From Clostridia bacterium (GTDB lineage: Bacteria > Bacillota > Clostridia > Oscillospirales > Acutalibacteraceae), in contig JAFTUG010000003.1 in the NCBI GenBank assembly GCA_017466365.1, forward strand, positions 1-42,065: DNA of 42,065 nucleotides, read 5' to 3'. The notes beneath the pieces were generated by a model. The model ran no database searches and had not been told where the DNA came from. It was given only the letters and a program-made list of their open reading frames with translations. Made by a program: the position numbers and the translations under genes. Positions 11,318-31,391 of the stretch are shown here, piece after piece; within the stretch, counting starts at the first letter, position 1; every line of letters starts with the position of its first letter.

Positions 11318-11330
11318 CAAGGTGTTTTTT

Positions 11331-12179
11331 ATGGAAAAATATATAGACTTACACACTCATTCTCTTAAATCCGACGGCTCGATGACACCGACTGAAGTTG
11401 TTGCCGAGGCAAAAAAGGCGGGTCTTGCCGCCATTGCCCTCTCCGACCACGATACGGTTGACGGCGTGCGTGAAGCGGTTGAAGCAGGCAAAAAGCTCGG
11501 CGTTGAGGTTATCCCTGCAATTGAATTTTCCGTTCAGTCAAAAACAGAAACACATATTCTCGGCTATTTTATCGATATTGAAAACCCCGATTTGCTTAAA
11601 ATGCTCAAAGAGGTTGTCAATTTAAGAATAGAACGCAACTATGTAACCTGCAGCAGACTTAATGAATTGGGCTTTGACATCACACTGGAAGAGGTGCGTG
11701 CGCTTGCACCGAATAATTTCGTTGGCAGAGCTCATTTTGCAAGAGTGCTTATGGATAAGGGATATATTTCAAGCGTTAAAGAAGGCTTTGATAAATATAT
11801 GTCCGTAGGCAAATATGCCTATTGTGAAAAGCAGCGCCTTACCGCCCGTGATGCAATCGAGCTGATAAAAAAATGCGGCGGAATATCCTTTCTTGCTCAT
11901 CCGCACCTGACAAAGCTCCCGGATGATGAGCTGAAAGAATTTTTGGTTGAGCTTAAAGGCTGCGGGCTTTGCGGACTCGAGGGTTACTATACGGATTACA
12001 CCCCCGAAATGCAGGAAAAATATCAGTCCATGGCAAAGGAGCTCGGACTTATGATATCGGGCGGCACGGATTTCCACGCAAAAATGAAGCCCCATATTTC
12101 AATAGGCACGGGACTCGGCAACATGAAAATACCCTATTCCGTAATTGAAAATATGAAGAAAAAATGTGGCAAGCTTTGA
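11331..12179 (+). CDS. PHP-domain phosphoesterase
   Basis: 282 residues from the ATG at 11331 (AAGGTG upstream). PHP metal-binding motifs are in order: DLHTHSLKSDGS (H8, H10, D15), SDHDT, the mid-protein E of IEFS, LAHPHL, and the C-terminal GGTDFHAKMKPH. This matches the TrpH/YciV-like group of metal-dependent phosphoesterases; characterised members hydrolyse nucleoside 3',5'-bisphosphates such as pAp or trim RNA 5' ends. The substrate here is inferred from the family. It lies directly behind the YigZ-family gene and ends in a strong terminator. Confidence 0.9.
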   Translation: MEKYIDLHTHSLKSDGSMTPTEVVAEAKKAGLAAIALSDHDTVDGVREAVEAGKKLGVEVIPAIEFSVQSKTETHILGYFIDIENPDLLKMLKEVVNLRIERNYVTCSRLNELGFDITLEEVRALAPNNFVGRAHFARVLMDKGYISSVKEGFDKYMSVGKYAYCEKQRLTARDAIELIKKCGGISFLAHPHLTKLPDDELKEFLVELKGCGLCGLEGYYTDYTPEMQEKYQSMAKELGLMISGGTDFHAKMKPHISIGTGLGNMKIPYSVIENMKKKCGKL

Positions 12180-12197
12180 TGCTTTGCCACATTTTTG
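12163..12197 (+). terminator. Terminator after the PHP gene
   Basis: Stem AATGTGGCAAGC / GCTTTGCCACATT with one bulge, loop TTTGAT, then TTTTTG. It overlaps the last codons and stop of the PHP gene. Confidence 0.85.
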
Positions 12198-12225
12198 TCA
12201 TTTTGTATAATTTTCATATAAAATA

Positions 12226-12254
12226 TTGAATTTCTATTAATTATATGTTAATAT
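12226..12254 (+). promoter_or_regulatory. Probable promoter for the first hydrolase-like gene
   Basis: TTGAAT (12226-12231), 17 nt, extended -10 TGTTAATAT (TAATAT at 12249-12254). The surrounding leader is very AT-rich. Confidence 0.5.
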
Positions 12255-12292
12255 ATATTATCTTTTAATTATGAAGGAGAGTGTACCCCAAA

Positions 12293-14185: not shown

Positions 14186-14197
14186 TAACTAAATACA

Positions 14198-14230
14198 AAC
14201 GGGGACAATCTGCAAATGATTGTTCCCGTT
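14198..14230 (+). terminator. Hairpin between the hydrolase paralogs (attenuator-like)
   Basis: A 13-bp stem (AACGGGGACAATC / GATTGTTCCCGTT, one G-T pair), loop TGCAAAT. It is followed by AAAACATT rather than a T-run. It could be a 3' stability element or partial terminator within an operon. Confidence 0.55.
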
Positions 14231-14256
14231 AAAACATTAGGAAAGGGCTTGTAATT

Positions 14257-16095
14257 ATGAAAAAAATCATTTCCCTCATCCTCGCTTTTGTTCTCGCCTT
14301 CTCAATGCTTTCACTTACCGCATCAGCTGCAGTTAAAACGGAGTGCAAAGGTGACTGCGAGCATTGTCCCTCAATCGTTGTTCCCGGTATCGGTCAGTCC
14401 AATGTATGGGCTCTCGATGAAAACGGCGATTACCTCCTTGATGATAACGGTGAAAGAATCAGCTGCTTTCCAGCAATTTTTGATGTCGGTTCAATAGTAA
14501 AAACCGTACTCGGCCCCGTACTTCTTACCCTCATCACTCAACACGATGTTTTTCTCTCCGATGCTCTCTGTGATGTTGTGCTTGATGCGTTTGAAGTCAA
14601 CAACTGCGACCCTGAAACAGGCAAAAACACCGGTAATATTGAGGTTGAAAAATACCCCTATTCCGTTGCAGAATGCAGCGATTACGAAAAGGGCGAAATT
14701 TACGACAACATTCCCCTTCAGGCATATTCCGAAATCGCAGGGGAAGACCATCTCTATTATTTCGCTTACAACTCCTTCGGCAACAATCTCGACATCGTAA
14801 ATGAGCTTTATGCTTTCATTCAGATGGTTAAGGCTGAAACAGGTCACGATAAGGTTAATATCGTCCCCATCAGCATGGGCGGTTCTGTTGCCAACGGACT
14901 TTTTGAATATTATCCCGAAGTTGTGAACGATCTCAACAAGGTTGTTTACATCGTTCCCGCACTCAACGGTTCAACAATCGTTGGCGATCTCTACACAAAG
15001 AACCTTGCATTCCTTAACACCGAATTCCTCTATAACGGCTTCCTTGAAACTCTTATGGATGAAGAAGAAGCAAGAATGATTGAGGTTATCGCAAGAATTC
15101 TTCCCGATGAAGTTCTCACAGGCGTTCTCACAAACGTTGCAAACTGCCTTGTTGAAGACGTTGCGGCAAACATCACAATGCTCTGGGGTCTTTGCCCCAA
15201 GGAATATTATCCCGCAGCTTCAAACGCTCTCCTCGGTTCAAAGCCCGAAATAAAGAAGCAGACAGATAAATTCTACAAGGCACAGCTTAACTCCCTTTCC
15301 AACATTCAGAAGCTTGTTGATAACGGCGTTCAGGTTTTTGATATTGTTGACTACGATGCACCTCTTTACCAGATAGGCAACTCATGGAATAATGACAATG
15401 CAGACGGCGTTATCCATCTTTCCTCAACAGCCATGGGTGTTCACAGCGCACTCGTGGGCGAAACTCTCGGTGAAGGCTATAAGCAGGCTAACACAAGCGT
15501 AAACTGCTCCAACCCTGCACACAACCACATTTCACCCGACAATGTTGTTGATGCTTCTACAGGTCTCCTTCCCGATACTACCTTCTATTTTGACGGTCAG
15601 AATCACGAAAGAACAGCAAGAAACGATATCATAATTTCTCTTGCTACAAAACTTCTTGCAACCGATGATATAAAGGATGTTTATTCAACTCCCGATTATC
15701 CTCAATTCAACGGAGCAAGAGACCCGAGAGATATCAAAAACAACCTTCTTCCCGCTGCAAAAGCAGTTGATGCATCAGCCCTCAACGCAGCAGATGCCAC
15801 AGAGCTTGCAGCCGCAATCGCAGAGGCAGAAGCTTTTGTAAACGGCACTGTATGCTACGACGGTCAGGAAGAGAAAATCGAAGAAAGACTTAAGGCAATT
15901 CTTGTTAAGGTTGGCGCAAGAGAAGCAGAGGTTGAAGAAGAACCCTCAACCTTCTTTACCGAATTAAGCCTTTGGCTCTACGATAACTACGGCGCAAACG
16001 GCTACTCCGAAATGCTTCCCCTCACCATCAATCTTATCGCAAAAACCGTCAGCGATTTCCTTAACGAATATATACTCGCTCCCTTCTTCGGATAA
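14257..16095 (+). CDS. Secreted alpha/beta-hydrolase (lipase-like) protein, paralog 2
   Basis: 612 residues; ATG at 14257 with AGGAAAGGG upstream. Signal peptide MKKIISLILAFVLAFSMLSL, mature start near residue 25. It shows the same blocks as paralog 1: ECKGDCEHCPSIVVPGIGQS, IVPISMGGS (S206 as probable nucleophile, again P instead of G in the elbow), SSTAMGVH, NPAHNHISPDNVVDAST, and DGQNHERTARND. A helical segment with alternating EAEAF/ERLKAILVKVG pattern also recurs near the C-terminus. The pair looks like an old tandem duplication, since the architecture is shared but local identity is modest. It is probably extracellular or wall-associated. The second copy ends in a strong terminator and is likely co-expressed with the first. 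Confidence 0.75.
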   Translation: MKKIISLILAFVLAFSMLSLTASAAVKTECKGDCEHCPSIVVPGIGQSNVWALDENGDYLLDDNGERISCFPAIFDVGSIVKTVLGPVLLTLITQHDVFLSDALCDVVLDAFEVNNCDPETGKNTGNIEVEKYPYSVAECSDYEKGEIYDNIPLQAYSEIAGEDHLYYFAYNSFGNNLDIVNELYAFIQMVKAETGHDKVNIVPISMGGSVANGLFEYYPEVVNDLNKVVYIVPALNGSTIVGDLYTKNLAFLNTEFLYNGFLETLMDEEEARMIEVIARILPDEVLTGVLTNVANCLVEDVAANITMLWGLCPKEYYPAASNALLGSKPEIKKQTDKFYKAQLNSLSNIQKLVDNGVQVFDIVDYDAPLYQIGNSWNNDNADGVIHLSSTAMGVHSALVGETLGEGYKQANTSVNCSNPAHNHISPDNVVDASTGLLPDTTFYFDGQNHERTARNDIIISLATKLLATDDIKDVYSTPDYPQFNGARDPRDIKNNLLPAAKAVDASALNAADATELAAAIAEAEAFVNGTVCYDGQEEKIEERLKAILVKVGAREAEVEEEPSTFFTELSLWLYDNYGANGYSEMLPLTINLIAKTVSDFLNEYILAPFFG

Positions 16096-16104
16096 TTAAA
16101 CAGC

Positions 16105-16143
16105 AAAACCTCCTATGGTGTTTTACCATAGGAGGTTTTTTGA
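16105..16143 (+). terminator. Strong intrinsic terminator
   Basis: 15-bp perfect stem (AAAACCTCCTATGGT / ACCATAGGAGGTTTT), loop GTTTT, with a T-run after it. It also lies downstream of the convergent YbjN-like gene. Confidence 0.93.
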
Positions 16144-16183
16144 TTTCACTTCACTTTTTATGAATCAAATCATATAGCCTAAA

Positions 16184-16666
16184 TCACTTAGAACTCTGTT
16201 CGGATTCAATAAACTGCTGAACTGTCAGCATTCCTTTTGAAATCATAAAAAACTTATCATTGTATATATCAACCGTCGATGCGGCAACCATAAGCATATA
16301 TTCAAACAACTCCTCACTCAAGGTGCTTTCTTTGTAGCTGGAGGTAAGTCTGAATAAAATTGTGCCGTCAGAAAGATTGTAGTCAAACGAACCGTCAGCC
16401 AAGCCGTAATTTGCCGTGCAGACAGCCAAGGCCAAATCTATGCGCTTGGACTCATCAACTTTATAAGGCATCCACGAGAAAAAGGAAACTATCTCATTTC
16501 TGGGATTAACCCTCATAATAAAATCAATAGGAAGGTCGTCGCCCTTCACACCCGATTTGATAACCAAATCATCCTCAATTTTATCGTAGTGCCACTTTTT
16601 GTTATCCAACATTTTGCATAATACTTCGTATGTTTCCTTTGCTTTTGCCATGTTTAACTCTGCCAT
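16184..16666 (-). CDS. YbjN-domain protein
   Basis: 160 residues; ATG at 16666 with AGGAGG seven nt upstream. The fold signature of the YbjN/TY3S-chaperone-like family is visible: DNKKWHYDKIEDDLVIKSG, then DLPIDFIMRVNPRNEIVSFF, and a helical half with RIDLALAVCTANYGLADGSF and ILFRLTSSYK. Such proteins are cytosolic and usually act as small binding or regulatory partners; E. coli YbjN is described as a global regulator of motility and stress genes, by an unclear mechanism. It is the last gene of the sigma factor/zinc-protein operon (23 nt after the preceding gene), so a chaperone or adaptor role for that pair is possible but unproven. Confidence 0.75.
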   Translation of the reverse strand: MAELNMAKAKETYEVLCKMLDNKKWHYDKIEDDLVIKSGVKGDDLPIDFIMRVNPRNEIVSFFSWMPYKVDESKRIDLALAVCTANYGLADGSFDYNLSDGTILFRLTSSYKESTLSEELFEYMLMVAASTVDIYNDKFFMISKGMLTVQQFIESEQSSK

Positions 16667-16688
16667 TTCAAATCCTCCTGTTATTTTA

Positions 16689-16934
16689 TCAATAATTCTT
16701 ATTAACGTTCTTTTTTGTTTTTATTAAATCATCAATAATATTTAAATCAAAATTATTTTCCAAAACTGCCTTTTTAATTTCATCATTTATGCACTCGAAA
16801 GAATTTACCTTTTCTTTGCAAGATGAACAATTTCTGATATGTCCGTTAACCTTTGATAATAAATCTAATGTTTCATTATCAACTTTATTTGCCGTAACAT
16901 ATTTAATTATTTCTTCTACACTTAAATGTTCCAA
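16689..16934 (-). CDS. Putative zinc-binding anti-sigma factor
   Basis: 81 residues beginning with TTG at 16934, preceded by AAAGGTGG; no ATG is available, so the TTG start is required. The core VNGHIRNCSSCKEKV contains H32-x3-C36-x2-C39, the HxxxCxxC pattern of ZAS-type anti-sigma factors. The first 30 residues (LSVEEIIKYVT... LLSKVNGHI) match the helical lead-in of that domain. There is no membrane segment, so it would be a soluble regulator. It lies 14 nt behind the sigma-like gene, the usual order for a sigma/anti-sigma pair. The C-terminal half is short, lysine- and asparagine-rich and shows no family. Function is inferred from motif and position. Confidence 0.65.
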   Translation of the reverse strand: MEHLSVEEIIKYVTANKVDNETLDLLSKVNGHIRNCSSCKEKVNSFECINDEIKKAVLENNFDLNIIDDLIKTKKNVNKNY

Positions 16935-16948
16935 ATTTATTCCACCTT

Positions 16949-17782
16949 TTAATCAGCTTTCAATTGTTTTTTGATTTGGGCATTAACTCTGTTAATCCAA
17001 TCACTTACAGACATTTCCGGACCCTTGCTCATATAAAATTCCGAATATTTCATATCACCGATTCTTTTTCCGGTGTCTTTGTTGATTGTATCAAGCTTTT
17101 TCTTTTGTTTATTCAACTGTTCTTCATCAAACATAAGCCAATCAAGCTTCAATAATAATCTCACGACCAAATCAAACATTTCACAGAGAGTAATATCGCT
17201 AAACTTTTCAACTAAAAAGTGCGTTGACTCAATCTTGCTTGTGTCACATACCATCATAACCAACGAAACCGAAAGCCAGGTTAAAACTATATGGAGACTC
17301 GATTTTAACTCAAAAACTATGGCAAAGCATTCTTTTAGTCTGCTCTTATTCTCGTCCGATTTTTCTTTTTCTCCAAAGGAATCCTCGGATGAAAATGGCT
17401 CAACCTCGTCGTCATCAAGTTTTATCGATAAATTCAGTTCAACTTCTTTTCTGTTTTTTTGTTTTACACAGTATGTAAGAAAATAGTTTTTTGCTACTTT
17501 GAAGCACCATGCTTTAAACTCTTCACATGTTTTATCGGTTATTCCGCATACAGGTTTAAAGAAATGGTCCTCACACTTTTTCATTATTCTGATTTGTATT
17601 TCCTGCATAACATCTTCATCATGCATACCGCCACGCAACACCGAATCGTTATAGCACCAGCTTTTCACTTTTTTGCTTAACAGATTATGCACAAATATAA
17701 CAAGCTTATCGTATTTGGGACAATCTCTTCCGCATATTTCGTCAACCAAATCAGAATATAATTGTTTTTCATCAAAAACCAT
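16949..17782 (-). CDS. ECF-like sigma-70 family factor, divergent
   Basis: 277 residues, longer than typical ECF factors. Region 2 is recognisable: HDEDVMQEIQIRIMKKCEDHF (about 54-74) matches the DAEDLVQETFLR pattern, and FKAWCFKVAKNYFLTYCVKQ (about 89-108) matches the FRAWLYRIARN promoter-melting helix. After an acidic linker (about 122-146) the region 4 equivalent is unusual: a hydrophobic helix around 160-178, a middle insertion, and at the end IGDMKYSEFYMSKGPEMS followed by VSDWINRVNAQIKKQL, which looks like an HTH with a recognition helix. Its own consensus promoter precedes it, and a zinc anti-sigma candidate and a YbjN protein follow. It may read promoters elsewhere in the genome. Low-GC codon use suits the rest of the island. 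Confidence 0.7.
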   Translation of the reverse strand: MVFDEKQLYSDLVDEICGRDCPKYDKLVIFVHNLLSKKVKSWCYNDSVLRGGMHDEDVMQEIQIRIMKKCEDHFFKPVCGITDKTCEEFKAWCFKVAKNYFLTYCVKQKNRKEVELNLSIKLDDDEVEPFSSEDSFGEKEKSDENKSRLKECFAIVFELKSSLHIVLTWLSVSLVMMVCDTSKIESTHFLVEKFSDITLCEMFDLVVRLLLKLDWLMFDEEQLNKQKKKLDTINKDTGKRIGDMKYSEFYMSKGPEMSVSDWINRVNAQIKKQLKAD

Positions 17783-17812
17783 TTGAAATCACATCTTTTT
17801 CCTTTTTTGAAA

Positions 17813-17842
17813 ATTATATCATATATGCAGAAGCACTGTCAA
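17813..17842 (-). promoter_or_regulatory. Consensus promoter of the sigma/anti-sigma/YbjN operon
   Basis: On the minus strand TTGACA (17837-17842), 18 nt, TATAAT (17813-17818), about 31 nt before the ATG. It allows this sub-operon to be expressed separately from the upstream CARF gene. Confidence 0.88.
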
Positions 17843-17874
17843 TTAAAGAAGAAAAAGAAACAATGAATTCTTTT

Positions 17875-17888
17875 TCGAAAATTTTCGA
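17875..17888. repeat. 14-bp perfect palindrome after the CARF gene
   Basis: TCGAAAATTTTCGA lies between the CARF stop (17922) and the sigma operon promoter. It could be a weak terminator stem or an operator; nothing decides between these. Confidence 0.4.
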
Positions 17889-17921
17889 GCTCTGTAAATA
17901 CAGACCCTGATACACCATTAA

Positions 17922-19172
17922 TCAGCAAAGTATATTCTTTATTTTTTTTGCAAATTCTTCTTCAGAAAGCTCATGGACATTTTCAATTAATTGTATTTTC
18001 ATGTCTTTTGCTCTCTGAACAAAATACTTGTGCCCTTCAATACTGTTTTTTCCGAAGTAAGATGCGACCAGCACCTTTTGAGCATACGGCCCGCCAAACT
18101 TTTCGGATACTGTATTCAGCTTATAAAGCTCTGTTTCATCAACATATCCGTTTTTGCAGGAAATAAATACAGGAACCAAGCCCTTCGTTAAAACAACATC
18201 AATTTCATTTTCTGTATCTTTTTCTTCTTCGGATATATCGTGAATTGTTGAATCCCAATCAATGTAAACTCCGTTAACCGCATCGTCGTATCTGGCGGAA
18301 CCGTCTTTTTCTTTTGCGGCTTTGGCATGAAGCAAAACCATAAGTTCAAGCAAAGTCCCTTCTTTTGTCAAACATAGCTTAACCTGTTCATTTTTGAACG
18401 CAAAAGAAACCGTATCGTCATCATCCGCTAAATTCTCAATAAGCCCGTATCTGCAAAAATTTTTTACCAGACCCGAAACCCAAACATATTTGTGCTTTTG
18501 ACTATTCATAACTTCTTCTATGTGAGCCTTGTTTGCAGAGACCTCTAATTGTGACATGGCTTTGGTGCAGGTTTCGGAAATACATGAAAACGTACCTATT
18601 TGTGAGTTCCATAAACCGGGATTTTTTTTGCATATATCCCACATGGTTTTTAAATCCGATTCAAAATCATCATCAAACACCCACTCGTATGTACCTTTAT
18701 TACCGTTATATGAAACAACGGTGCCTCCATACAGCATGATGTTGTCTTTTACGGTAAGCTTTGGCGGCTCTGTATCCGGTAAAACCCCGTCACTGTCGCA
18801 ATCGTAAACCGTTCCTGTTCTTACATTAAACCTATGCATTTGAATTTTTCCTGTGCTTCTGTATTTTTCAAACACAATGCCCATCGCCACCAGAACTAAA
18901 TCTTCACCGCCGGTGAGGTCAAAGGCACAGTTTTCTTCAGTCTCAACGATTTCTGTCAAAGCCGAAACGATCTGCTCAACACTGTTCTTGTTGATTGGCT
19001 TAAAACCAAACTCAACATCAACTCCATGCGCATTTGCAAATCTCAAATATACACTTTCTTGTTTCTTCATCGGCTTTTTTTCACCGATAAATATGATTTT
19101 ATCAGGCTTAATCGCCAGACAGCTAGCCATATTAACTATTGACACACCATCAAAAAACTCAACTATCGTCAT
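17922..19172 (-). CDS. CARF-PD-(D/E)xK nuclease, DUF1887/Card1/Can2-like
   Basis: 416 residues. The N-terminal Rossmann-like CARF domain (about 1-135) has hydrophobic strands (KPDKIIFIG) and the hallmark NCAFDLTGGEDLVLVAMG (DLTGG at 85-89), the ligand-site motif of DUF1887 proteins. A winged-helix-like middle (about 160-270) includes VWVSGLVKNFCRYGLIENL. The C-terminal nuclease core has E275/E277 in GTLLELM, NEIDVVLTKG (D325) and VPVFISCKNG (K340). In characterised relatives cyclic oligoadenylate binding to CARF dimers switches on DNA or RNA cutting, normally in type III CRISPR systems. No CRISPR array or Cas gene is present here. The gene follows the AAA-FtsH gene after 102 nt. The D-x(14)-K core spacing is intact, although E is replaced by S two residues before K340. 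Confidence 0.85.
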   Translation of the reverse strand: MTIVEFFDGVSIVNMASCLAIKPDKIIFIGEKKPMKKQESVYLRFANAHGVDVEFGFKPINKNSVEQIVSALTEIVETEENCAFDLTGGEDLVLVAMGIVFEKYRSTGKIQMHRFNVRTGTVYDCDSDGVLPDTEPPKLTVKDNIMLYGGTVVSYNGNKGTYEWVFDDDFESDLKTMWDICKKNPGLWNSQIGTFSCISETCTKAMSQLEVSANKAHIEEVMNSQKHKYVWVSGLVKNFCRYGLIENLADDDDTVSFAFKNEQVKLCLTKEGTLLELMVLLHAKAAKEKDGSARYDDAVNGVYIDWDSTIHDISEEEKDTENEIDVVLTKGLVPVFISCKNGYVDETELYKLNTVSEKFGGPYAQKVLVASYFGKNSIEGHKYFVQRAKDMKIQLIENVHELSEEEFAKKIKNILC

Positions 19173-19274
19173 TTGTATACATCCTAATTTTACGTTATTC
19201 TTCTTACATTGTTTTATGTTGTCAGAACTCTTATAAAAACATAAACTTCATTCCGAATTTTTTTCGCAAAAAAG

Positions 19275-22200
19275 TTAGATGTTTTTTGTTGCATACGCAG
19301 AAAAAATTCTGTCAATTTCATTTGTGGTCAAATGATTCTTTTGCAATAATTCCTCTACTATTTTTTCAACCGCTTTGCGATTATCGGCAAGGATTTTCTT
19401 TGCATTTTCCAACTCGGTCTTAAGAATATTGTTTATTGCATCTCTTATCTGTTGTGACATCGCTCCGGTTGAAAGTTCATTTTCCTGAACAACAGCCAGT
19501 CCGATATTATCATCCATGCCGAAATTACAAACAATATTTTTTGCAATAGCTGTTGCATTTCTTAAGTCACTGCTCGGTCCCGTAGTAAGACCGTTTTCGT
19601 CACCAAAGAATACCAATTCAGAAGCTCTGCCGCCCAAAGCGGTTCTGATTCTGTTGAGCAGCATGGCTTTTGTGTAGGTGCCACGATTTTCGGTATCGCC
19701 ATGGAACATATATCCGCCATGATTGCCTCGGGCAACAACGGTTAAATATGACGGCGTTTCGCCGTTGTACCAGCACAAAAATGCATGCCCCGCCTCGTGA
19801 TATGCTGTATTTTCAAGCTCCGAAATATCCCATTTTTTCTCCTCGCCGAAAATGAACGATTCAAATGCTTCTTCAAGAACTCCATCATCCACTTCGTTCT
19901 TGTTTTCTCTGATTGCAATTCTCATAGAGAATTCAAAAACAGATGCAAGCTGCGCCAAGCTCATTCCGGTAGAACGGACAGCAATATTTTCTATTTCTTC
20001 GCCGGAAATATTAAAAATAGGCTTGTCCTTTATTTTCATATTTATATATGCGATTCTCGCTTTTTTATCCGGCAAATCGATATAAATATGTCTGTCAAAA
20101 CGTCTCAAAAGAGCTGCGTCAAGGCTTTTGCTTGTTCCGGGTTCTACTTCAAAATTTGTTGCCGCCAAAACAAAAACAGGCTTCTTTGCGTCAGTTTTAA
20201 AACCATCCATCTGGTTCAAAAACTCCGTCAATATGCTTTCAGAGGAAAATCCGCTGCCTTTTCTTTCTTTAGCAATAGCATCAATTTCATCTATAAATAT
20301 GATTGTGGGTGCATATTTTCTTGCTGTGGCAAATAAATTGCGCACCATGTCTCCACCCTCACCGACATATTTCTTTAAGAACTGATTGCCTGAAGCACAT
20401 ATAAAAGTTACATCCGATTCACCTGCAACCGCTTTTGCAAGCATGGTTTTACCTGTGCCGGGAGGTCCGTAGAATAAAACGCCTTTGGGAACGCCTAATC
20501 CTTTTGACGAATACGTCTTCGGATTTTTTAAATAGTCAACAAAATACTTCAGCTCACTCTTGGCACTTTCCGCACCGATTATATCATCAAATTTAACATT
20601 CGGTTTGGAAACATCAGTTAAAATATTACCGCTGTCCTCTGCATCAACGGCTGTTTCCAAAGAAATATCAAACAATCTTATTTCCGCTGATTTGCCGTCA
20701 GATGTTATGCTTTGTGAGGTTTCATATGTAATTAATTTGCTTGATTTCGCCAAATCAATCATGCTTTGCTGATGATGCAATTGCATCAAAATTTCAGAAA
20801 CTGCCGCATCCAACTCTTCTGTTGCACTAACATCGACAATACCGCGAACACCCTCTTTTGTCAGCGAGAATTTCTCCTCTTCTCTGTACTTATGGGTATC
20901 ATCGGCAAGAACATAAAGAGGTGCATCAGTTGATTCGCATACATACTTAAAGAAAGCCCTTCCTTCGGAATCTACATCTTCGATATTCAATTCCCTGCAA
21001 ACATCGGAACGTTTTCCGCTATGCAAATCACAAAAAACAAGCTCCACATCCTGTTTATTAATTATATTCTTTGCCTCTTCTAACGAAGAAACATTTATAC
21101 TATTATAGCCTTTTTTCTCTGCAATTACATCAATTTTGTCACATGCCTCCTTGTCTCCGAAAGACAATATGCAGCCTTTGGAATCATCTCGGAACAAGCG
21201 CAGCACCTGCTCATTTTCAGGAAGCTCCAATGTAACATCTATATTTTCAATATTCTCAATGCTGATGACGTTATCTCCGCTGGAAATCAATCTGAACAAT
21301 TCGTATAATTCAGTGCTGAAAAAGCTGTTAGCCCTGCTTTTCACGGTTCGTGCATCGGCATGTCCGCCTTCCGAAAACAATACACAGGAATAAACATCAT
21401 CAGAAACATTGCACTTAATGCCTGTTTCTTCTTCGAGACATTTGGCATTTCTGGAAATTTCCTTTTCTGCAATTTTTCTTAAGGAGTGTGCTTCCATATG
21501 ATTAAACATAATAACATTACCCGTTGCAAATCTTGAACAAATTGCAGCAGGAAAAGAGCCTAAACCTGTTTTCGGGTCAATATCCGTTTCTAAAGCTCTT
21601 AATATTGTTTTTCTGGAAATGCCCGACAAATTCGGAGTTAACGAACCTTCGTAAACTTTTCTGCCGGCATTGGTTGTAAAAATGATTATAGCTTGCGAAA
21701 AATCAACTTCCTTGCTTGTATTGGTATCGCGAAGTCTGCCGGCATCAAGCACCTGCAAAAACAAATGAATAACCGCTATATTTGCCTTTTCAATCTCATC
21801 AAAAAGCAATACACATTTCGGATTCTTTGCAACAAAGCCGGTTAACCCGCCTTCTTTATCGCCCTTAAATGATTTATTGGTGCCCAGCAGCTCCATAAGT
21901 GCATCTCTTTCAGAGTATTCACTCATATCAAATCTCATAAAAGGAAGAGCAAGCATTTCGGCTGCTTGTTCGGCCAAAAATGTTTTACCAACACCGGGAG
22001 GCCCTGCGAACAAATATGTTGCTTTAGGCTTTTTGCTTGTTTTATCAGTTATGCTTCTGAGTTCTGACTGAAAATATCCGGATGCAAAAATGCTTATTGC
22101 ATTATCCTGACCAAAAACAACACTGCTCAATTTTCTTTGCATTGATTTAACTTTTTCGGTCAGCGCAGCAATTTGCTCTTTAGGATTCATTCCGCAATCT

Positions 22201-22766
22201 CTGCATTCTGCTTCCGTCTCTTCGCTTAAGGCTTCACCGTTTGCACCGTCTTTTTCTTCGTCTTTATCCTTTTGAATAAACTTCAAAAACTCTTCCGCAG
22301 CCTTAGAAACCGCATCGGAGGTTATATTTGAATTCTTATCTTTTTTATCCGAACCCGACATTATTGTTTTAATCTCATCTGTCGGTGAATCGATTATACA
22401 TTTCAGGAAAATGTCAGCCGTGATATTCTTTTTCCCTTTTTGTTCTGAAATTTGTTTTGATGAAGCCATAACTTGCCTGAACAAAAGATCGTCTATATAA
22501 GTTTCTTTTTTTGAACATAACATTTCAATATAAGAAGAAAGCTTTTCCGATTTTGTTATATCATTAACAATTTCAAATAATGCTTTAACTTCAGAAACAT
22601 CATATTCCGAGTTAACTTGTGACTCCGAAGTATTGTTGCAATATTCCAAAACAGCGGCAAAGACATGATTCACGGTCAATATTTTACTGCCATTGTTATT
22701 CTTGATTTTTTCCGCACACTCAAAAAGATGGCTTAAGAGCTTGCTGTTTGTCATATCCTGATTCAT
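19275..22766 (-). CDS. Clp-N / AAA+ / receiver-like / FtsH AAA+ / M41 metalloprotease fusion
   Basis: 1163 residues from the ATG at 22766, which has GAGGAGGAAG upstream. Domains in order: Clp-N-like double helical repeat (about 5-140); a charged linker (140-195); a ClpA/B D2-type AAA+ module with Walker A GPPGVGKT (255-262), Walker B LLFDEIEKA (320-328), sensor FTTNAG and R412; a receiver-like domain (about 530-660) with D580 in LVFCDLH but without the usual Thr and Lys; an FtsH-type AAA+ module with GPPGTGKT (767-774), IIFIDEID (822-829) and RRFDR (888-892); and peptidase M41 with HEAGH (990-994), GGRASE and TTGPSSDLRNAT. FtsH is normally about 650 residues and membrane-anchored; no transmembrane segment is seen here. 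It is presumably a soluble ATP-driven unfoldase-protease dedicated to this island. All catalytic motifs look intact. Confidence 0.9.
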   Translation of the reverse strand: MNQDMTNSKLLSHLFECAEKIKNNNGSKILTVNHVFAAVLEYCNNTSESQVNSEYDVSEVKALFEIVNDITKSEKLSSYIEMLCSKKETYIDDLLFRQVMASSKQISEQKGKKNITADIFLKCIIDSPTDEIKTIMSGSDKKDKNSNITSDAVSKAAEEFLKFIQKDKDEEKDGANGEALSEETEAECRDCGMNPKEQIAALTEKVKSMQRKLSSVVFGQDNAISIFASGYFQSELRSITDKTSKKPKATYLFAGPPGVGKTFLAEQAAEMLALPFMRFDMSEYSERDALMELLGTNKSFKGDKEGGLTGFVAKNPKCVLLFDEIEKANIAVIHLFLQVLDAGRLRDTNTSKEVDFSQAIIIFTTNAGRKVYEGSLTPNLSGISRKTILRALETDIDPKTGLGSFPAAICSRFATGNVIMFNHMEAHSLRKIAEKEISRNAKCLEEETGIKCNVSDDVYSCVLFSEGGHADARTVKSRANSFFSTELYELFRLISSGDNVISIENIENIDVTLELPENEQVLRLFRDDSKGCILSFGDKEACDKIDVIAEKKGYNSINVSSLEEAKNIINKQDVELVFCDLHSGKRSDVCRELNIEDVDSEGRAFFKYVCESTDAPLYVLADDTHKYREEEKFSLTKEGVRGIVDVSATEELDAAVSEILMQLHHQQSMIDLAKSSKLITYETSQSITSDGKSAEIRLFDISLETAVDAEDSGNILTDVSKPNVKFDDIIGAESAKSELKYFVDYLKNPKTYSSKGLGVPKGVLFYGPPGTGKTMLAKAVAGESDVTFICASGNQFLKKYVGEGGDMVRNLFATARKYAPTIIFIDEIDAIAKERKGSGFSSESILTEFLNQMDGFKTDAKKPVFVLAATNFEVEPGTSKSLDAALLRRFDRHIYIDLPDKKARIAYINMKIKDKPIFNISGEEIENIAVRSTGMSLAQLASVFEFSMRIAIRENKNEVDDGVLEEAFESFIFGEEKKWDISELENTAYHEAGHAFLCWYNGETPSYLTVVARGNHGGYMFHGDTENRGTYTKAMLLNRIRTALGGRASELVFFGDENGLTTGPSSDLRNATAIAKNIVCNFGMDDNIGLAVVQENELSTGAMSQQIRDAINNILKTELENAKKILADNRKAVEKIVEELLQKNHLTTNEIDRIFSAYATKNI

Positions 22767-22796
22767 ATTCTTCCTCCTCAATCACTTTAATTTTTA

Positions 22797-22976
22797 TTAT
22801 CTTTGCTTTATCTCTGATTTTTCTCGCACCCATTTGACGGGAACCAGCCAAATTCTTTGAGCCCCGAATTGCTGCGCACCTTCAACCTTTCCGTCTTTAC
22901 AAAGCTGCTGTATCCACCTTTCGGTCACTCCGATTTTTTCGGCAGCCTCTTTCGCCGAAATATAGTCAAATTCCAT
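22797..22976 (-). CDS. Small excisionase/MerR-type HTH protein
   Basis: 59 residues; ATG at 22976 with GGGAG upstream. The sequence reads DYISAKEAAEKIGVTERWIQ, then QLCKDGKVEGAQQFG and RIWLVPVKWV, the pattern of HTH_17/excisionase-like winged helices (helix 1, recognition helix with ERWIQQL, and the WLVP wing). Such domains bind DNA and often act as small regulators or recombination directionality factors. Here it is embedded between the RyR gene (34 nt upstream) and the protease gene (30 nt downstream), so it is more likely the island's own regulator, perhaps acting on the palindrome in the promoter at 25889-25917. That link is inference. Confidence 0.8.
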   Translation of the reverse strand: MEFDYISAKEAAEKIGVTERWIQQLCKDGKVEGAQQFGAQRIWLVPVKWVREKSEIKQR

Positions 22977-23010
22977 TAAAATTCTCCCAACTTAAACAGT
23001 ATAATTCTAT

Positions 23011-23295
23011 TTAATCTTCCTTTTCAATTTTATATCCCAAAGCAACTATCAATTTCAATGTTTCAAGCGCCGTATTTCTGTCATATTCTTTTTCGCTTTC
23101 GGGAAGCTCCGAATACGGAATAAGACAAGGTGTGGTTTTCTTTGAGTCGTCTCTTTTTTCACCATATATCCAGCCTTCGGAAATTCTTCCTGCTGCCCAT
23201 ATATCATGTACATTCTCGGCTATTTCTTCTGTAAGACCAAGAAGCTCTTCGGACAATACAATTCTGCTTGTATCTACAGGATTCGGATTATACAT
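23011..23295 (-). CDS. Stand-alone RyR-domain protein
   Basis: 94 residues; ATG at 23295 with AAGGAG upstream, one base after the stop of the preceding gene, so translation is coupled. The whole protein is one ryanodine-receptor repeat domain: NPVDTSRIVLSEELLGL, ENVHDIWAAGRISEGWIYGE, LIPYSELPESEKEYDRNTA, LETLKLIVALGYKI. The HDxWA-x-GWxYG core and the PYSxLxxxEKxYDR motif are strong family marks. In eukaryotic calcium channels these repeats sit in the cytosolic shell. In bacteria they occur in signalling and conflict-type neighbourhoods and have been proposed to bind nucleotide-derived ligands. The ligand here is unknown. Confidence 0.88.
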   Translation of the reverse strand: MYNPNPVDTSRIVLSEELLGLTEEIAENVHDIWAAGRISEGWIYGEKRDDSKKTTPCLIPYSELPESEKEYDRNTALETLKLIVALGYKIEKED

Positions 23296-23296
23296 A

Positions 23297-25852
23297 TCAC
23301 TTTTCTCCTTGAGTTAGTTTTATTATTGACTCTATAATTCGGGTATCGGTATCCTTGGGATAATCATAAAACTTCATATCCGTTCCGTTTAGCTCGGAAG
23401 CTAAATCCAGCATATCCAGCGGCTTTTCCTTAAACGGCTGACCATCTTCACTTCTTTTTCTGCTTGAGTCAACGCATATATCAATAATTCTTTTTACATC
23501 TGTTATTTTATTTTTCATCTCCGCTTCATCTGTTTTTTCTCTATTTCCATCTTTCAATAATTTTAATTTCTCAATAGATTTTTTCAGATTCTCATTAAGA
23601 ATTTCAGGCTGAATTTGTTCGCTTTCAGGAAGTCTTAACCAAGAACATATACATTTTTCAAACAGCTTTTCATTCAGTTCCTGCTCACCGATTACAACAT
23701 TCAATAATCGTGCTTTTAAATCATTAATTCTAATTTCGCCGTTACCGTCTATCGGTGTTTCAGAGCATTCAAACAAACAGCCATGTATCTTCTGATTGAT
23801 GTTTTTTCCTTTCATTTTAACCTGTGAAAAGCCGATTGAACGCATATACGCATTCCAGCGTCTGTGCTCAAGCCAGGTCAAATATTGCAAAACTTCCTCT
23901 CTCGCATTTTCACTAAGAACATCTTTTCGGTAATTATCGATTGCCCTTTCATCAAAGGATTTGAGATTTTCCCTGTTTGCAGCATCGTGATAATTTTCTT
24001 TTGCATATAAATACGAAGAAAAAATACGATACTTCAAGTGAACTTCTCTCGCCTTGCTGGACAAATTATCATACAACGATTTGTTGAAGCGTTTTTCTTG
24101 TTCCTTCTTCTTTTCCTCACATGAAGATTTAGAATATACATCATGGACAGAAAGTGCCGAAGGATCCCTGTTAACCATAGTGACATTTTTATAACTGTAT
24201 GTTTCCTCAACACTGCCAAAAGGATACATATCAATATTCGGATTCAAAGAATCATATCCGCTGTTAAGAATGCTGCAAAAGCTATCGTTATATACAACAT
24301 AAGCAATAACCTTTTTTGATTGACTGCCGCTGATTTTTTGCCTTACGCTTATTTTCCTTTCAAGCTCTTCGGCTATTGCTATATTCAGTTCATCGCTGCC
24401 CAAAGCAACAAAAATATAATCGGACTCCAAAATATTAAACGCTTCTTGTTCTTTATCAACGGCAGTATTTTTGTCTTTGGCAGCCCCAAGAATTGTACAT
24501 TCGACCTTTGATAAATCAACGCTGTTCATTTTGTATCTGCCGTACCTTACCGTAAAATACGGTTCTTGGAAATGTTCATCATTTTCATCCGGATAGGTTT
24601 TCAATAGCGGAGATTCTTCTCTTGTGCTTTCCAATATTTCCGGACTAATCCTGTTGAGTCTGTCCTCAAAATCTTTTTCTTTCTCATCCGAAACAACGTT
24701 TATATTTAATCTATAGCCGTAAAACTGTCCGGCCCAGGTGGAGGAAAGAAACATCTGCATGCCGATTTTACCGCTGCCGATTATTGTTAAGTTGAATTCT
24801 CTTTTCTCGTCACGTTTTATTTCAAGCCCACTTTCATTTGACAGCAGCGGTTCAACAAGAGGCTTTTCGGCTAACAGCTTTAAAATCAAATTTTCATATT
24901 CCTTAACCCTTGTTATAACAGGTGTATCATTATGAGCACCCGACTCTTCAAAATGTTTCTTTGTTTTATCATAGATTCTCTTCTCTATCATAGCATATGA
25001 ATCATCTTGATAAAAAATATATATCTGTGCTTCTTTTATCATTGAATCATAACCGTTATCGCACATTTCCGAAAGTGTCTTGATATTTTCTTTTTCATCT
25101 TCATCCATTAAGAAAATCTGCTTTTCTCTAAAGCACTTAACCTTCAAGTGAGCCAAATCATCATTGATGCATACTGCACCTAATTTTTTGGCTTCCAAAA
25201 AATATTCCGAGCTTTTTTCGCTTTCATCATCTAAATATGTATCGGTAAACACCAGTAACGGTCTTTCCCAAATGCCTGTGTTTTCCAACAAAACACTCTT
25301 AGCCAAAGCTAATGTGCGTTCGTTTAATTCACTGAAATAGTATTGATTTCTGAAAAGCGAAACTTTGAGTTTTAATTTTGGAAAAACGGTCGTCAAAACA
25401 TCAAAAACTATAGCCCCTCCGGCCAGCGGTGTTAATAAATTCAAGCACGATGCATAAATACCGTACACATATTCACACCAATATTTTTCGGATACGATAT
25501 CCCTTATCATTTCTTTTCCCAAAACAATATAATGGACATATTCCTCATCCAAGCTCAAGGTGCGAAGAGCATGTATAAAGCTGTCAAACAGCAATTCCAT
25601 CACAGTAAGCCCCTCACCTTTTCCGATGATTTCGGAATAGTATGATACTGCCAAGCGTAAAAACCAAACTGAAACAACAAGAAAAACAGACAGAATCATA
25701 AGCTTCCTGCTTAACGGCGAGGTATCTGTAATTTTATCTTTTTTATTATGATCGGTAAACCATTTGTAAAGTGCAAAAACAGCCGGCACAAACCAACACA
25801 AAACAGAAACAGCCAGTAAAAATCTTATAAAATTTATCTGCATATCCGTCAT
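23297..25852 (-). CDS. Membrane protein with tandem Rossmann (TrkA/KTN-like) modules and RyR-like region
   Basis: 851 residues from the ATG at 25852, which has GGAG seven nt upstream; a GTG at 25870 lies before that site and is rejected. Three hydrophobic segments occur near the N-terminus (about 7-28, 50-71, 132-155). A first Rossmann-like half follows (about 168-290; FSELNERTLALAKSVLLEN, RPLLVFTDTYLD), then a second with the nucleotide-type loop LTIIGSGKIGMQMF (355-368) and DYIFVALGSDELNIAIA (478-494). Near 655-680 LTWLEHRRWNAYMRSIGF resembles the helical core of RyR repeats. The C-terminal 150 residues are charged and helical, with no family recognised. The layout recalls ion channels gated by RCK/KTN domains, but no selectivity filter is seen. 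It is the first gene of the island and probably a membrane-bound sensor. Confidence 0.7.
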   Translation of the reverse strand: MTDMQINFIRFLLAVSVLCWFVPAVFALYKWFTDHNKKDKITDTSPLSRKLMILSVFLVVSVWFLRLAVSYYSEIIGKGEGLTVMELLFDSFIHALRTLSLDEEYVHYIVLGKEMIRDIVSEKYWCEYVYGIYASCLNLLTPLAGGAIVFDVLTTVFPKLKLKVSLFRNQYYFSELNERTLALAKSVLLENTGIWERPLLVFTDTYLDDESEKSSEYFLEAKKLGAVCINDDLAHLKVKCFREKQIFLMDEDEKENIKTLSEMCDNGYDSMIKEAQIYIFYQDDSYAMIEKRIYDKTKKHFEESGAHNDTPVITRVKEYENLILKLLAEKPLVEPLLSNESGLEIKRDEKREFNLTIIGSGKIGMQMFLSSTWAGQFYGYRLNINVVSDEKEKDFEDRLNRISPEILESTREESPLLKTYPDENDEHFQEPYFTVRYGRYKMNSVDLSKVECTILGAAKDKNTAVDKEQEAFNILESDYIFVALGSDELNIAIAEELERKISVRQKISGSQSKKVIAYVVYNDSFCSILNSGYDSLNPNIDMYPFGSVEETYSYKNVTMVNRDPSALSVHDVYSKSSCEEKKKEQEKRFNKSLYDNLSSKAREVHLKYRIFSSYLYAKENYHDAANRENLKSFDERAIDNYRKDVLSENAREEVLQYLTWLEHRRWNAYMRSIGFSQVKMKGKNINQKIHGCLFECSETPIDGNGEIRINDLKARLLNVVIGEQELNEKLFEKCICSWLRLPESEQIQPEILNENLKKSIEKLKLLKDGNREKTDEAEMKNKITDVKRIIDICVDSSRKRSEDGQPFKEKPLDMLDLASELNGTDMKFYDYPKDTDTRIIESIIKLTQGEK

Positions 25853-25888
25853 ATCAATTCTCCGTTTCACTGAATAAATCCAATTTCA

Positions 25889-25917
25889 ATTATAACTTCG
25901 CATTTGCGAATTGTCAA
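25889..25917 (-). promoter_or_regulatory. Consensus promoter with operator-like palindrome, start of the island operon
   Basis: On the minus strand TTGACA (25912-25917), 17 nt, TATAAT (25889-25894). The spacer holds a perfect 6+2+6 palindrome TTCGCAAATGCGAA (25897-25910), an ideal place for a repressor to block RNA polymerase. The ATG lies about 37 nt beyond the -10. Confidence 0.9.
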
Positions 25918-25941
25918 CGATTATGATTACAGAGCATTTAT

Positions 25942-25973
25942 TTAATAATCTTTTGAATTCAAAAGATTATTAA
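25942..25973. repeat. 32-bp perfect AT-rich palindrome
   Basis: Each arm is 16 nt (TTAATAATCTTTTGAA and its complement) with no loop, centred on GAATTC. It lies 25 bp upstream of the island promoter -35 and 6 bp past the BspA terminator hairpin. It may be an operator, a terminator-like element or an insertion scar. Confidence 0.6.
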
Positions 25974-25979
25974 GGCAAA

Positions 25980-26006
25980 CCCCCGTACAGACGAACTGTA
26001 CGGGGG
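25980..26006 (-). terminator. Terminator hairpin of the BspA-like gene
   Basis: Perfect 11-bp stem CCCCCGTACAG / CTGTACGGGGG, loop of five, beginning 9 nt after the stop. The T-run behind it is weak (GTTTGCCTT), so some read-through into the island is possible. Confidence 0.75.
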
Positions 26007-26015
26007 TAATTATTC

Positions 26016-29000
26016 TCAAAAACTGCCTTTAAAAATTGACTGAATTACGGTTCTGTTCATTCCGAAAAGGTTTTTGAAGAATGAGATTATCTTTTGGAAG
26101 AAACCTGCTTTCGATGTTATTGTTTGCTCCGAAGAAATCTCTCGTCCTAAACCGTTTTTTATAGGAACACCGTTTCTATCAACAACAACGGCTTTAACCG
26201 TTGCAGTTCCGCTTGAAACAGAGGTCACTTTACAGATTTTTCCGTCTGCACTTTGATTCAATTCTACTCCCTTGCCTGAAACAACTTCCCATTTAATATA
26301 TGCGCCTTCCGGTAAAGCCAAATCATTTGTGCTTAACAAGAGAGAATCGCCATAGTTGACAGAGGCAGAATTGTTAAGATTATTTATGGTAAAGTTATCC
26401 ATAAAATCCATTTCGCCGCTTGCGATAATAAACAGGCTGAAATCATCTGTTGTAAATTTTATATATCCGTTTTCAACGGTTATTGAAAGCTTTTCGTGTT
26501 TATTATCATCGCCGACATGATATACGGATATTTTTTCTTGATCCCAGCCTTCCGGTACGGGGATATATACTGTTACAGGATAATTCAAATCAGCTTTTTC
26601 ACCGTTCTGAATAATGGAAATATCAAAAACATCACAATGTACATCAGGGTTATGGATCGATTTCACATAATCAACCTCGTCGCCCGATGTTATGGTAACC
26701 GAATGAAATATCACATTGTCCTTCAGTATTTCAGACTTTGCTTTTACTCCGTTTGAGATTCTTTCTCCGTTGTTTTGTATTTGATAAACATAAACAGACC
26801 TGTAATCCACATACTCATTCATAAGTGCGATTTGTGAACAGAGTTTCGCCACTTTTATGGGTGCATAATAGCAATTGTTTATTATATCATCAACACAACT
26901 GCCCCATGTAACGCTGAAAAGTACATTGTAGATATCTTTTTCAAAATAGCCTTTGGCTACATCAATAATGCAGTCAATAATGGGTTTACCGGCGGCAATA
27001 AACAGCTTTCCTGTGTATTCAAGCAGTTCATCCGCAAATCCCGAAGCGATTTCTGTAGTGAGCTTGAACTCTTCTTTTAAGAATTTCTGACGGATTTTGT
27101 CAATAAACTCTATATATGTTTTTTGTTCTTCGGATAAAACCTTTTCTGCCATTTCTTGGGTTATTTCCGATTCTTTGGGTTTCAGCTTTTTGGCAACGCT
27201 TGATACAACTTCAAAGCCGAGATTGCTGATGTTATAAATAGCGCATGAGTCAGAAACAAGGATGCTTTTTGTTATTGTGAAATATCCGTTTGCGGGAACA
27301 TAAACCGAAACAGAGGTTTTTTCTGTCTGGGTACTGCCTTTATATTCGTTAACATCAAGATAATCACCGATATGCCACAGCATTTTCATTGCAGTTTCCG
27401 TATGTTCAAATATATTTGACGGATAGTCGCCGTCAAATTTATCAATCATAACAGACTCAATTCTTTCTCCGCTTGATGTGTAAACATCCACTGCACCTAT
27501 ACAGCAATCAACATTATATACGTCAAAGCTATACTCTGCACTGCCGTCATCATTTTCTGTTACATCAAAGTCGTCGATAAACATGCCGTCAACATAAAGC
27601 GGATTTCCGTCATAAAACTGCTCTAAATCCGTAGAATAATACACTGTTTTTTCTGTGGTTACGGTAATCGGAACAGAACAGCTTACGTTATCGTAGGTTG
27701 CGGTGATGTTCAGCGGAGTTGCGCCCTGTTTTTTTCCTCGGATGATAACACGGGTATTCTCTGACTGCTTTACAACTTCTGCAATTTCCGCAACGCTGCC
27801 GTCGGCAATGCTGAAAGTGATTCCTTCCTGTTTGCAAGGCTCTCCGTCGCGTGACAGCACAACCTTTATTTCAATTTCTTCGTCGGGAGCTATATTCACC
27901 ATAGGCTCGGATGAATAAACATCGATGTATGCTCCCTCCTTGACAGACGGAGAAATATAAGAGAACGTAAAATCATCTTTATCTGTAAAACCGTTAAATT
28001 TTAATGACAAATCTGTTTTTGATTTTATAACTCCCGAAGAAAGATAAATATAGTATTTTTCGCCCGGCTCAATACGCTTGAATGCTCCTCTGATAAGTAA
28101 ACAGTTATCCTGCACTTCCGGCATAGAGCTAATGGACATGCCCTTGAAAACATCATAGGTTGAAAACACGGTTTCATCCGTATCATAATTTCGTATTGCA
28201 AGCTCTCCGTAGCCTGCTGATTCCGGACCAAAGTTTCCGATAATATTCTGATTAAATCTTAACACTAAATCGTCATCATACGATACAGCAGTTGCTTTAT
28301 CGGCAGGGGAAGAATGGATAAGCTTTAAAGTGTTTGTGTTTTCCTGATTATTGTTCTCATCATCGACGCCGGAATCGATTGAGTGGCTTCCGTCGCAAAG
28401 CCTGAATTCAATACCGTTTGCTTCAGCATATTGTTTTGCGTAACAGTTTTCGGTTGTTGAACAGATATAAGCGGAGGTTTCTGATAGTATTTCTTTTTCA
28501 ATAGAAGTGACACTTGCAGGAATGTGGACATATTCAAGACCGGTGCACCCTTTAAAAACTCTCGGGCCTAAATTTTTCACACTGTCCGGAATAGTTACAC
28601 CTTTAAGTGCGGTGCAATTTCTGAATGCACAGTTGCTTATACTTTTTACATTGTTGCCGATTGTTATGTCTGTAAGACCTGTGCAGTCGCTAAACACACC
28701 CTCACTTATACTTGTCATGCTGTCAGGAATTTTTATATTTTTAATACTGACACAACCATCAAATGCATTATCAGCTATATGCACGTTTTCAGGGATGTCA
28801 ATATTGGTAAGGGATTTGCAACCAAAAAACGCACGTTTTCCGATATAAGAAACGCTGTCGGGAATTGTTATAGTTTTAAGAGAAGCACACTCATTAAATG
28901 CACAATCACCTATGGTTGTTACTGTGTCGGGAATGATGATGCTGGTTAATCCGTTGCAAGACTCAAACGCATTATCCCCTATACTTGTTACACTGTCAGG

Positions 29001-30896: not shown

Positions 30897-30966
30897 TTTC
30901 CATCTCTCCTCTTAATACATATTCAGAAAATAAACAATAGAGTATATATTGTTAAAAATTCGGTTA

Positions 30967-30995
30967 ATTATAACACATTTGTGTTCAATTAACAA
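30967..30995 (-). promoter_or_regulatory. Promoter of the BspA-like gene with palindromic operator
   Basis: On the minus strand TTGTTA (30990-30995), 17 nt, TATAAT (30967-30972). A perfect 6+2+6 palindrome AACACAAATGTGTT (30972-30985) lies between and touches the -10. It shares the CRCAAATGYG core with the palindrome in the island promoter. Confidence 0.7.
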
Positions 30996-31054
30996 CATAT
31001 GTATTCATATTTTTGAAGATTTCCCTTTACAATTTTTTTAAGGGAGATGTTTAT

Positions 31055-31282: not shown

Positions 31283-31339
31283 AAAGTTGTAAGCAGAAAA
31301 ATTCAAGTCCGTTTTATGGTACATCACAAATGCTAAAAT

Positions 31340-31374
31340 AAACCCGAAGCAACAATAAAGGTTGTTTCGGGTTT
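31340..31374 (+). terminator. Terminator-like hairpin after the XRE gene
   Basis: 14-bp stem AAACCCGAAGCAAC / GTTGTTTCGGGTTT with one G-T pair and loop AATAAAG, followed by a T/C-rich run. Confidence 0.75.
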
Positions 31375-31391
31375 ACTCTCTTTCTTTATCC

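Follow-up and report, generated by a model that had tools for sequence, protein, structure and literature searches.

What do eight genes that join ryanodine-receptor (RyR) and CARF domains to a double-motor protease and a sigma/anti-sigma pair do together in one Clostridia genome? The question is raised by the block at positions 16184-25852 of the window analysed here, a 42,065-nucleotide stretch of contig JAFTUG010000003.1 (assembly GCA_017466365.1; contig C11 of the 80%-complete genome G000 in our labelling, in which loci carry L numbers). A sequence-only reading had described eight tightly spaced, same-strand genes in AT-rich DNA and had taken them for one operon serving signalling or abortive defence. 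All eight minus-strand reading frames are indeed present, with gaps of 1, 34, 30, 102, 139, 14 and 22 nt from gene 1, which encodes an RyR/RCK membrane protein, to the YbjN-family gene, and the GC content of the island (0.368) is lower than that of the left (1-16095, 0.449) and right (26016-42065, 0.408) flanks. A literature search yielded no description of this gene set among the matches listed, the surveys likeliest to mention parts of it (Burroughs 2015, Makarova 2020) lying outside its coverage, and the set points to an undescribed small-molecule alarm pathway. We are all but sure that the genes form a real module; more tentatively, and at somewhat under an even chance, we read the block as a nucleotide-triggered stress or defence module organized in two transcription units.

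Relatives of the block, from metagenome-assembled genomes (MAGs) of gut Clostridia, revealed that its genes travel together. The closest relative, L002 from a goat-colon Clostridia MAG, carries seven of the eight genes in the same order at 54-74% identity between different flanks, and L006 carries six, lacking gene 1 and the small helix-turn-helix (HTH) gene. Across the order, gene 1 was detected in 20 of 295 genomes (E 1e-6) and the Clp-FtsH fusion in 12 of 295 (1e-120), and 11 of the 12 Clp-FtsH genomes also have gene 1 (the exception is G264). The hypergeometric value for this overlap is 6e-14, or 9e-13 without the genome under study; it treats both 295-genome draws as the same set and, since the genomes are related, is no clean probability. 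The two genes are neighbours in G016, G197, G021 and, from the genus survey, G966, and lie on different contigs in several of the co-occurrence genomes. CARF, RyR, sigma/anti-sigma and YbjN genes stand beside gene 1 or Clp-FtsH in shuffled order in relatives; because RyR, sigma, anti-sigma and YbjN partners come only from loci fetched for gene 1, Clp-FtsH or CARF, counts in which every member has partners are not independent. A same-strand partner within 6 kb was found at 12 of 22 Clp-FtsH loci (one contig counted twice, L004 missing), three of these having only YbjN or TIR. Partners accompanied 12 of the 14 fusions with at least 43% identity to the window protein and none of eight divergent ones, two of which came by profile and carry no measured identity. 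Some loci overlap: L003 and L095 are the same contig, and L034/L035 and L100/L101 are 90-94% alike over long stretches. In a phylum-wide profile search the fusion appeared in 3 of 398 genomes, own genome included. The CARF gene is more widespread (34 of 291 genomes of the class, 1e-6), and partners were found at 9 of 29 CARF loci outside the window. The 20 class-survey loci that were fetched had none, and the module therefore includes just a part of the CARF family. Mapped onto a 30-member CARF tree, the module label requires 4 changes versus 8.6 in shuffles, a value reached by 1 shuffle in 500. The linkage thus exceeds chance by a wide margin, and partners were met again in further genera and families of the order; to this extent the sequence-only reading is supported.

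The proposal of a single operon is not supported. The perfect-consensus promoter claimed for the front of the block is present, and a second one precedes the sigma-like gene; these are the only 12-of-12 matches among 44 promoter-like sites in 15900-26200, where shuffles gave a mean of 32 (sd 6) and the weaker sites are near chance. At the two equivalent places L002 has, by eye, TTGACA-17-TATAAT (12-of-12) and TTGACA-18-TATAAC (11-of-12). Because both consensus promoters have equivalents in L002, the sequence suggests two units, RyR/RCK - RyR - (HTH) - Clp-FtsH - CARF and sigma - anti-sigma - YbjN. A palindrome in the spacer of the first promoter, TTCGCAAATGCGAA (window 25897-25910), resembles an operator; as a conserved operator it was rejected, being absent in L002. 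The 59-residue HTH protein (HTH_17, 5e-5) is encoded by a gene of GC 0.45 versus 0.36-0.39 in the three surrounding genes. L002 has no room for it, its RyR gene ending at 7647 and its Clp-FtsH gene starting at 7686, and the HTH gene is therefore probably accessory and not part of the core.

Features of the block, in window coordinates
Feature	Position	Strand	Remarks
Gene 1, RyR/RCK membrane protein	23297..25852	-	851 aa from ATG
Stand-alone RyR domain protein	23011..23295	-	94 aa, PF02026
Small HTH protein	22797..22976	-	59 aa, HTH_17 below cut-off
Clp-FtsH: Clp-type AAA+ / receiver-like (by eye) / FtsH AAA+ / M41 fusion	19275..22766	-	1163 aa
CARF - PD-(D/E)xK-like protein	17922..19172	-	416 aa, PADLOC CARF4
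Divergent extracytoplasmic function (ECF)-like sigma factor	16949..17782	-	277 aa, TIGR02937 below cut-off
Soluble anti-sigma-like protein	16689..16934	-	81 aa, TTG start, HxxxCxxC by eye
YbjN-family protein	16184..16666	-	160 aa, PF10722
Consensus promoter, first unit	25889..25917 (25917-25889)	-	TTGACA-17-TATAAT, 12-of-12
Consensus promoter, sigma / anti-sigma / YbjN unit	17813..17842 (17842-17813)	-	TTGACA-18-TATAAT, 12-of-12
Terminator-like hairpin 3' of YbjN	16105..16139	-	weak T tail
Hairpin between gene 1 and its upstream gene	25979..26007		listed for + strand

Pfam gave no match for gene 1 of the window itself. The AlphaFold2 model of its protein (pLDDT 76.4; 85.5 for a model of the N-terminal part) predicts transmembrane (TM) helices at 3-36, 47-75 and 124-164, a helix at 84-99 with TxSxDE[DE]Y after it, and two RCK-like Rossmann folds at about 168-340 and 350-563. 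The C-terminus is an RyR domain with H663, W666, H690 and D813. PF02026 matched this domain in a gene-1 relative just under cut-off (1.3e-5), and, among solved RyR structures, the gene-1 family profile matched a two-repeat chimera at 1.5e-10 and single bacterial repeats at 7e-5. Searches with the monomer model returned DMI1, GsuK, CASTOR, KtrA, TrkA, MthK and Slo1, the Rossmann domains dominating the scores. Like these RCK-gated channels and gating rings, gene 1 is predicted to place two RCK-like Rossmann folds behind a TM - short helix - TM arrangement; unlike them, it has an additional N-terminal TM helix and an RyR domain. No TVGYG-type K+ filter was found in gene 1, and the position after helix 84-99 is taken by the acidic TxSxDE[DE]Y of the long clade or a degenerate form of it. 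The model thus makes a channel-like build (TM, pore-type helix, TM, two RCK-like folds and an RyR domain) probable. The earlier "RyR-Rossmann sensor" accordingly gives way to a protein with the predicted build of an RCK-gated channel that also carries an RyR domain.

The RyR domains carry a clue to the likely ligand. In the part of a May 2026 preprint available to us, RyR domains are reported to bind or cleave TIR-made isomers of cyclic ADP-ribose (cADPR), RyDEP is a phage evasion enzyme with PF02026 relatives that act as sponges, and the ligand residues of the cADPR-binding, RyDEP-type RyR domain are H75, W78, H100 and D117 (PMC13232231). Assigned by alignment and spacing, the equivalent H663, W666 and H690 are kept in 24 of 24 aligned gene-1 proteins (five found later being left out) and D813 in 23 of 24; in the window protein D813 sits past a long insert. 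Compared with what that portion of the preprint describes, gene 1 shares a PF02026-type domain and the HxxW, H and D ligand residues, but its domain is chromosomal and forms the C-terminal part of a membrane protein with a channel-like build, and the island has an extra stand-alone RyR protein in which Thr replaces the phosphate-binding His (PMC13232231). This stand-alone domain is a strong PF02026 match (6.7e-37, 126 bits versus a cut-off of 27.4) and also matches animal RyRs as well as, at 4e-37, a bacterial structure entered as "putative ryanodine receptor". In its alignment the H and W of HxxW and the D are kept in 9 of 9 proteins and Thr occupies the H100 equivalent in 8 of 9, which points to a different affinity, a different ligand or a lost cleavage activity. 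From these residues we would guess, with the odds slightly against us, at a ligand of ADP-ribose (ADPR) type.

TIR proteins are candidate sources of such a signal. In L005, L038, L041 and L049 a TIR gene lies on the same strand as gene 1 or Clp-FtsH and no more than 6 kb away; the profile used was home-made from the L005, L038 and L041 proteins, which Pfam confirmed, and the L049 call comes from that profile alone. A 50-residue match in L044 is probably spurious and was not counted. All 13 module-gene genomes tested have TIR proteins scoring over cut-off, the own genome three of them, versus 4 of 14 well-known control genomes, an unmatched set. The sequence-only reading had remarked that no enzyme making a cyclic nucleotide was recognizable, and this agrees with what we found: the one CD-NTase model searched (SMODS, PF18144) had no match in the 80%-complete own genome (controls, 4 of 14), and Csm1-type Cas10 (TIGR02578) was over cut-off in none of the 13 module-gene genomes, Cmr2-type proteins not being searched. 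Weak partial TIGR02578 matches occurred in 4 of these 13, including the own genome; of the 14 controls, 7 had a match and 3 had one over cut-off.

The Clp-FtsH fusion has strong Pfam matches to AAA_2, AAA and Peptidase_M41. Alignment of 17 fusions demonstrated that both Walker B motifs, the second Walker A, HEAGH and D1067 are kept in 17 of 17 and the first Walker A in 16 of 17, so that every fusion combines an AAA domain with an M41 domain bearing HExxH and the third ligand, as in FtsH-type proteases. Between the motors lies a stretch that is receiver-like by eye, a fold that none of the tools bore out, with D580 kept in 16 of 17. The fusion scores 369 against TIGR01241 versus a cut-off of 600, no membrane segment was detected (highest 19-residue hydropathy 1.33) and the N-terminal FtsH anchor was not found. 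The FtsH ternary systems with MoxR-vWA, as far as the excerpt of their description extends, are alike in placing an FtsH-type AAA+ protein within a multi-gene conflict system; alongside MoxR and vWA they have a third component with a pair of FtsH-type AAA domains, whereas the island protein joins a Clp-type to an FtsH-type motor with M41, and the block has no MoxR-vWA pair (PMC7159879).

The CARF protein matched PADLOC CARF4 CARF_PDDEXK (1.2e-28), with Card1_endonuc under cut-off, and its nearest solved relatives are VC1899 (9.6e-16) and Can2 (1.6e-15). The likeness to Card1 and Can2 extends to a CARF domain, a PD-(D/E)xK-type fold by profile and the residues E276, NEID and K340. It stops at the ExK motif of these nucleases, where Ser replaces Glu: the sequence is SCK (SxK) in all 25 aligned CARFs, out of 30 at hand, versus ECK in VC1899, Can2, 8bao and 8z4i. 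The earlier call of a CARF nuclease therefore becomes that of a putative nuclease, in which Ser338 would predict little or no activity; a further difference from Card1 and Can2 is that Csm1-type Cas10 did not exceed cut-off in any of the 13 genomes. Further CARF loci stood out. The own genome has a second, distant CARF (28% identity; L122, G000:C12:226712-227854) without module partners; in L108 (8333-12150) a CARF gene directly adjoins one for an 809-residue Clp-type ATPase on the same strand; and in L034 (5530-7160), with equivalent families in L035, a PrsW-type intramembrane protease and a histidine phosphatase lie directly beside CARF - RyR - gene 1. The PrsW family is known to cut anti-sigma factors.

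The second unit begins with a sigma-like protein whose ECF-type sigma-70 region 2 matches TIGR02937 weakly (1e-5, 25 bits versus a cut-off of 42.9); a long insert separates it from region 4, which was assigned by eye. Six members of this family were found, the window's included. Five of them have the anti-sigma-like gene, which adjoins the sigma gene from behind in all five and encodes by eye an HxxxCxxC motif in five of five, which we take to be of ZAS type; no anti-sigma family model matched it in the family scans. The YbjN protein (PF10722, 4.7e-7) has counterparts near Clp-FtsH in five of five further loci, all fetched for their Clp-FtsH. One of the fusion loci, L005 (2790-20413), has two YbjN genes among TIR, TIR-WD40-like, TPR, PPP-type phosphatase and, by eye, kinase-like genes.

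We infer from these parts a pathway in which the ligand's identity, the conductance, the protease target, the order of steps and the biological purpose are all conditional. In the first unit, gene 1 would sense an adenine-type nucleotide, most likely one derived from ADPR, for example a cADPR isomer made by a TIR protein, and would alter membrane permeability. The stand-alone RyR protein might bind the same or a related ligand as a buffer, adaptor or degrader, while the soluble double-motor Clp-FtsH and the CARF protein could act downstream or in parallel, CARF sensing a second nucleotide. In the second unit, the soluble ZAS-type anti-sigma would hold the ECF-like sigma factor, and its removal, most simply by Clp-FtsH, would free sigma to switch further genes on. 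The nearest working precedent in the part of the literature at our disposal is CalpL/CalpT/CalpS, which links a nucleotide signal, a protease, an anti-sigma and an ECF sigma factor (PMC11417357). The block differs from the system as outlined there in having no SAVED or Lon match among the families listed for it, a different protease and a coupling that is only proposed (PMC11417357).

The chromosomal site bears on what the module is for. In the genus survey Clp-FtsH was found in 4 of 45 genomes and gene 1 in 5 of 45, three in common including the own genome; many of these genomes are incomplete, and the 15 fairly complete ones gave 1 and 2, respectively. The left-flank gene at 14257-16095 has relatives in 41 of 45, and no module genes occur in 12 loci at its close relatives, nine of which extend about 10 kb or more beyond the gene. 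Because presence in the genus is patchy and these loci are module-free, we take the module to be mobile or frequently lost, and its site to be variable. The equivalent site in genus-mates matched 21 defence-model families in 49 proteins (7 of 56 rows dropped as left-flank orthologues, two flank rows of L255 kept), a weak signal in which several families hit one protein and some hits may be ordinary genes; mad3-type ATPases, called by defence-ATPase models, could be placed there by name only in L253, L257 and L262. Around the module itself, the seven closest proteins from outside it were taken at each of eight loci, and these 56 matched just 2 PADLOC families (1e-10), one a SAVED-TIR model, and no TIR was found among the window genes with the home-made profile or in Pfam scans of the block. 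The former result weighs against a pure defence reading and does not support the defence-island placement expected by the abortive-defence reading. We hold a defence role to be plausible, at somewhat under an even chance.

The same scarcity of PADLOC families would suit a housekeeping regulon for envelope or ion stress, in which gene 1 is NAD(H)- or nucleotide-regulated Trk/Kch-type ion transport, Clp-FtsH performs quality control, the sigma/anti-sigma pair answers envelope stress and no phage is involved. RCK folds of known transporters bind NAD, ATP or ADP according to structure entry titles, in L039 and L043 the gene-1 relatives have two-component genes next to them (by eye), and the promoters are of constitutive type. 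Against a housekeeping set speak the patchy distribution in the genus, the low GC, the variable gene order, the CARF and RyR domains and the TIR neighbours, and we judge it unlikely, if still a serious competitor. Those TIR neighbours, together with the presence of TIR in every module-gene genome tested, would suit an anti-phage system of Thoeris-like type, with the RyR/RCK protein as effector, a distant TIR as the source of the signal and the other genes as add-on effectors or controls; the likeness to Thoeris lies in the TIR genes beside several relatives and in an ADPR-type ligand domain, and the variable genus-mate site with its defence-ATPase-model proteins fits as well. The window block has no TIR gene, though, a scan of seven of its proteins matched no Thoeris model, the controls for the TIR rate are unmatched and the relatives' neighbours are not defence genes, which leaves this alternative improbable.

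At the other extreme, the genes could be independent, brought together at a variable locus by chance or through the general tendency of islands to cluster. The partnerless CARF loci of the class survey agree with this, as do 11 of 25 gene-1-match loci without a partner within 6 kb; among the other 14, the 1013-residue match in L005 is false (kinase-like by eye) and was not counted as gene 1. Against independence stand the synteny of L002 and L006, the co-occurrence in 11 of 12 genomes and partner pairs in many orders, and we disfavour it as very improbable. A bolder version of the nucleotide-triggered module makes gene 1 a bacterial ryanodine-receptor-like channel, a cation-selective RCK-type protein opened via its RyR domain by a TIR-made cADPR isomer and coupled to proteolysis, CARF and the sigma switch. 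We consider this a long shot, a shade less probable than the Thoeris-like system; such a channel would be a bacterial counterpart of cADPR-linked calcium signalling.

If the nucleotide-triggered module is correct, gut Clostridia would have a signalling module in which two kinds of second-messenger sensing, by RyR and by CARF, are linked to a pore in the membrane, a protease with two motors and a sigma-factor switch. Bacterial RyR domains would thereby gain a role in the host, the RyR repeat found in the calcium channels of animals would gain an ancestor-like setting, and the old question of a link between animal RyR and cADPR would become testable with soluble 90-residue domains. The protease/anti-sigma logic of CalpL/T/S would likewise be extended to new parts.

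A phage origin was considered for both large proteins and rejected. No viral-contig DNA matched the one RyR/RCK peptide pattern used for gene 1, and for Clp-FtsH the viral stretches among the matches listed (80 loci) are at most ~1.4 kb, too short for the fusion; some viral rows span query residues 232-1156, which we attribute to a single AAA domain that matches each of the two motors. A short relative of gene 1 (27% identity over 36% of the query) lies at 16368-18458 of MT835673.1 (L209), whose label "Bacteriophage sp." is doubtful, the record being an unannotated 22 kb with bacterial-looking genes. Gene 1, the only module gene searched there, had no match on plasmids. The flanks of the block hold, on the right (26016-30896), a gene for a 1626-residue repeat-rich, secreted-looking protein and, on the left (12281-16095), two tandem genes for secreted-looking proteins. 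Finally, L040, L042, L045 and L048 are large clusters of a different make-up, in which gene-1 relatives are accompanied, by eye, by giant membrane proteins and by vWA-like and tubulin-like proteins; these clusters have families c13, c41 and c42 in common and are maybe further systems built on the gene-1 sensor.

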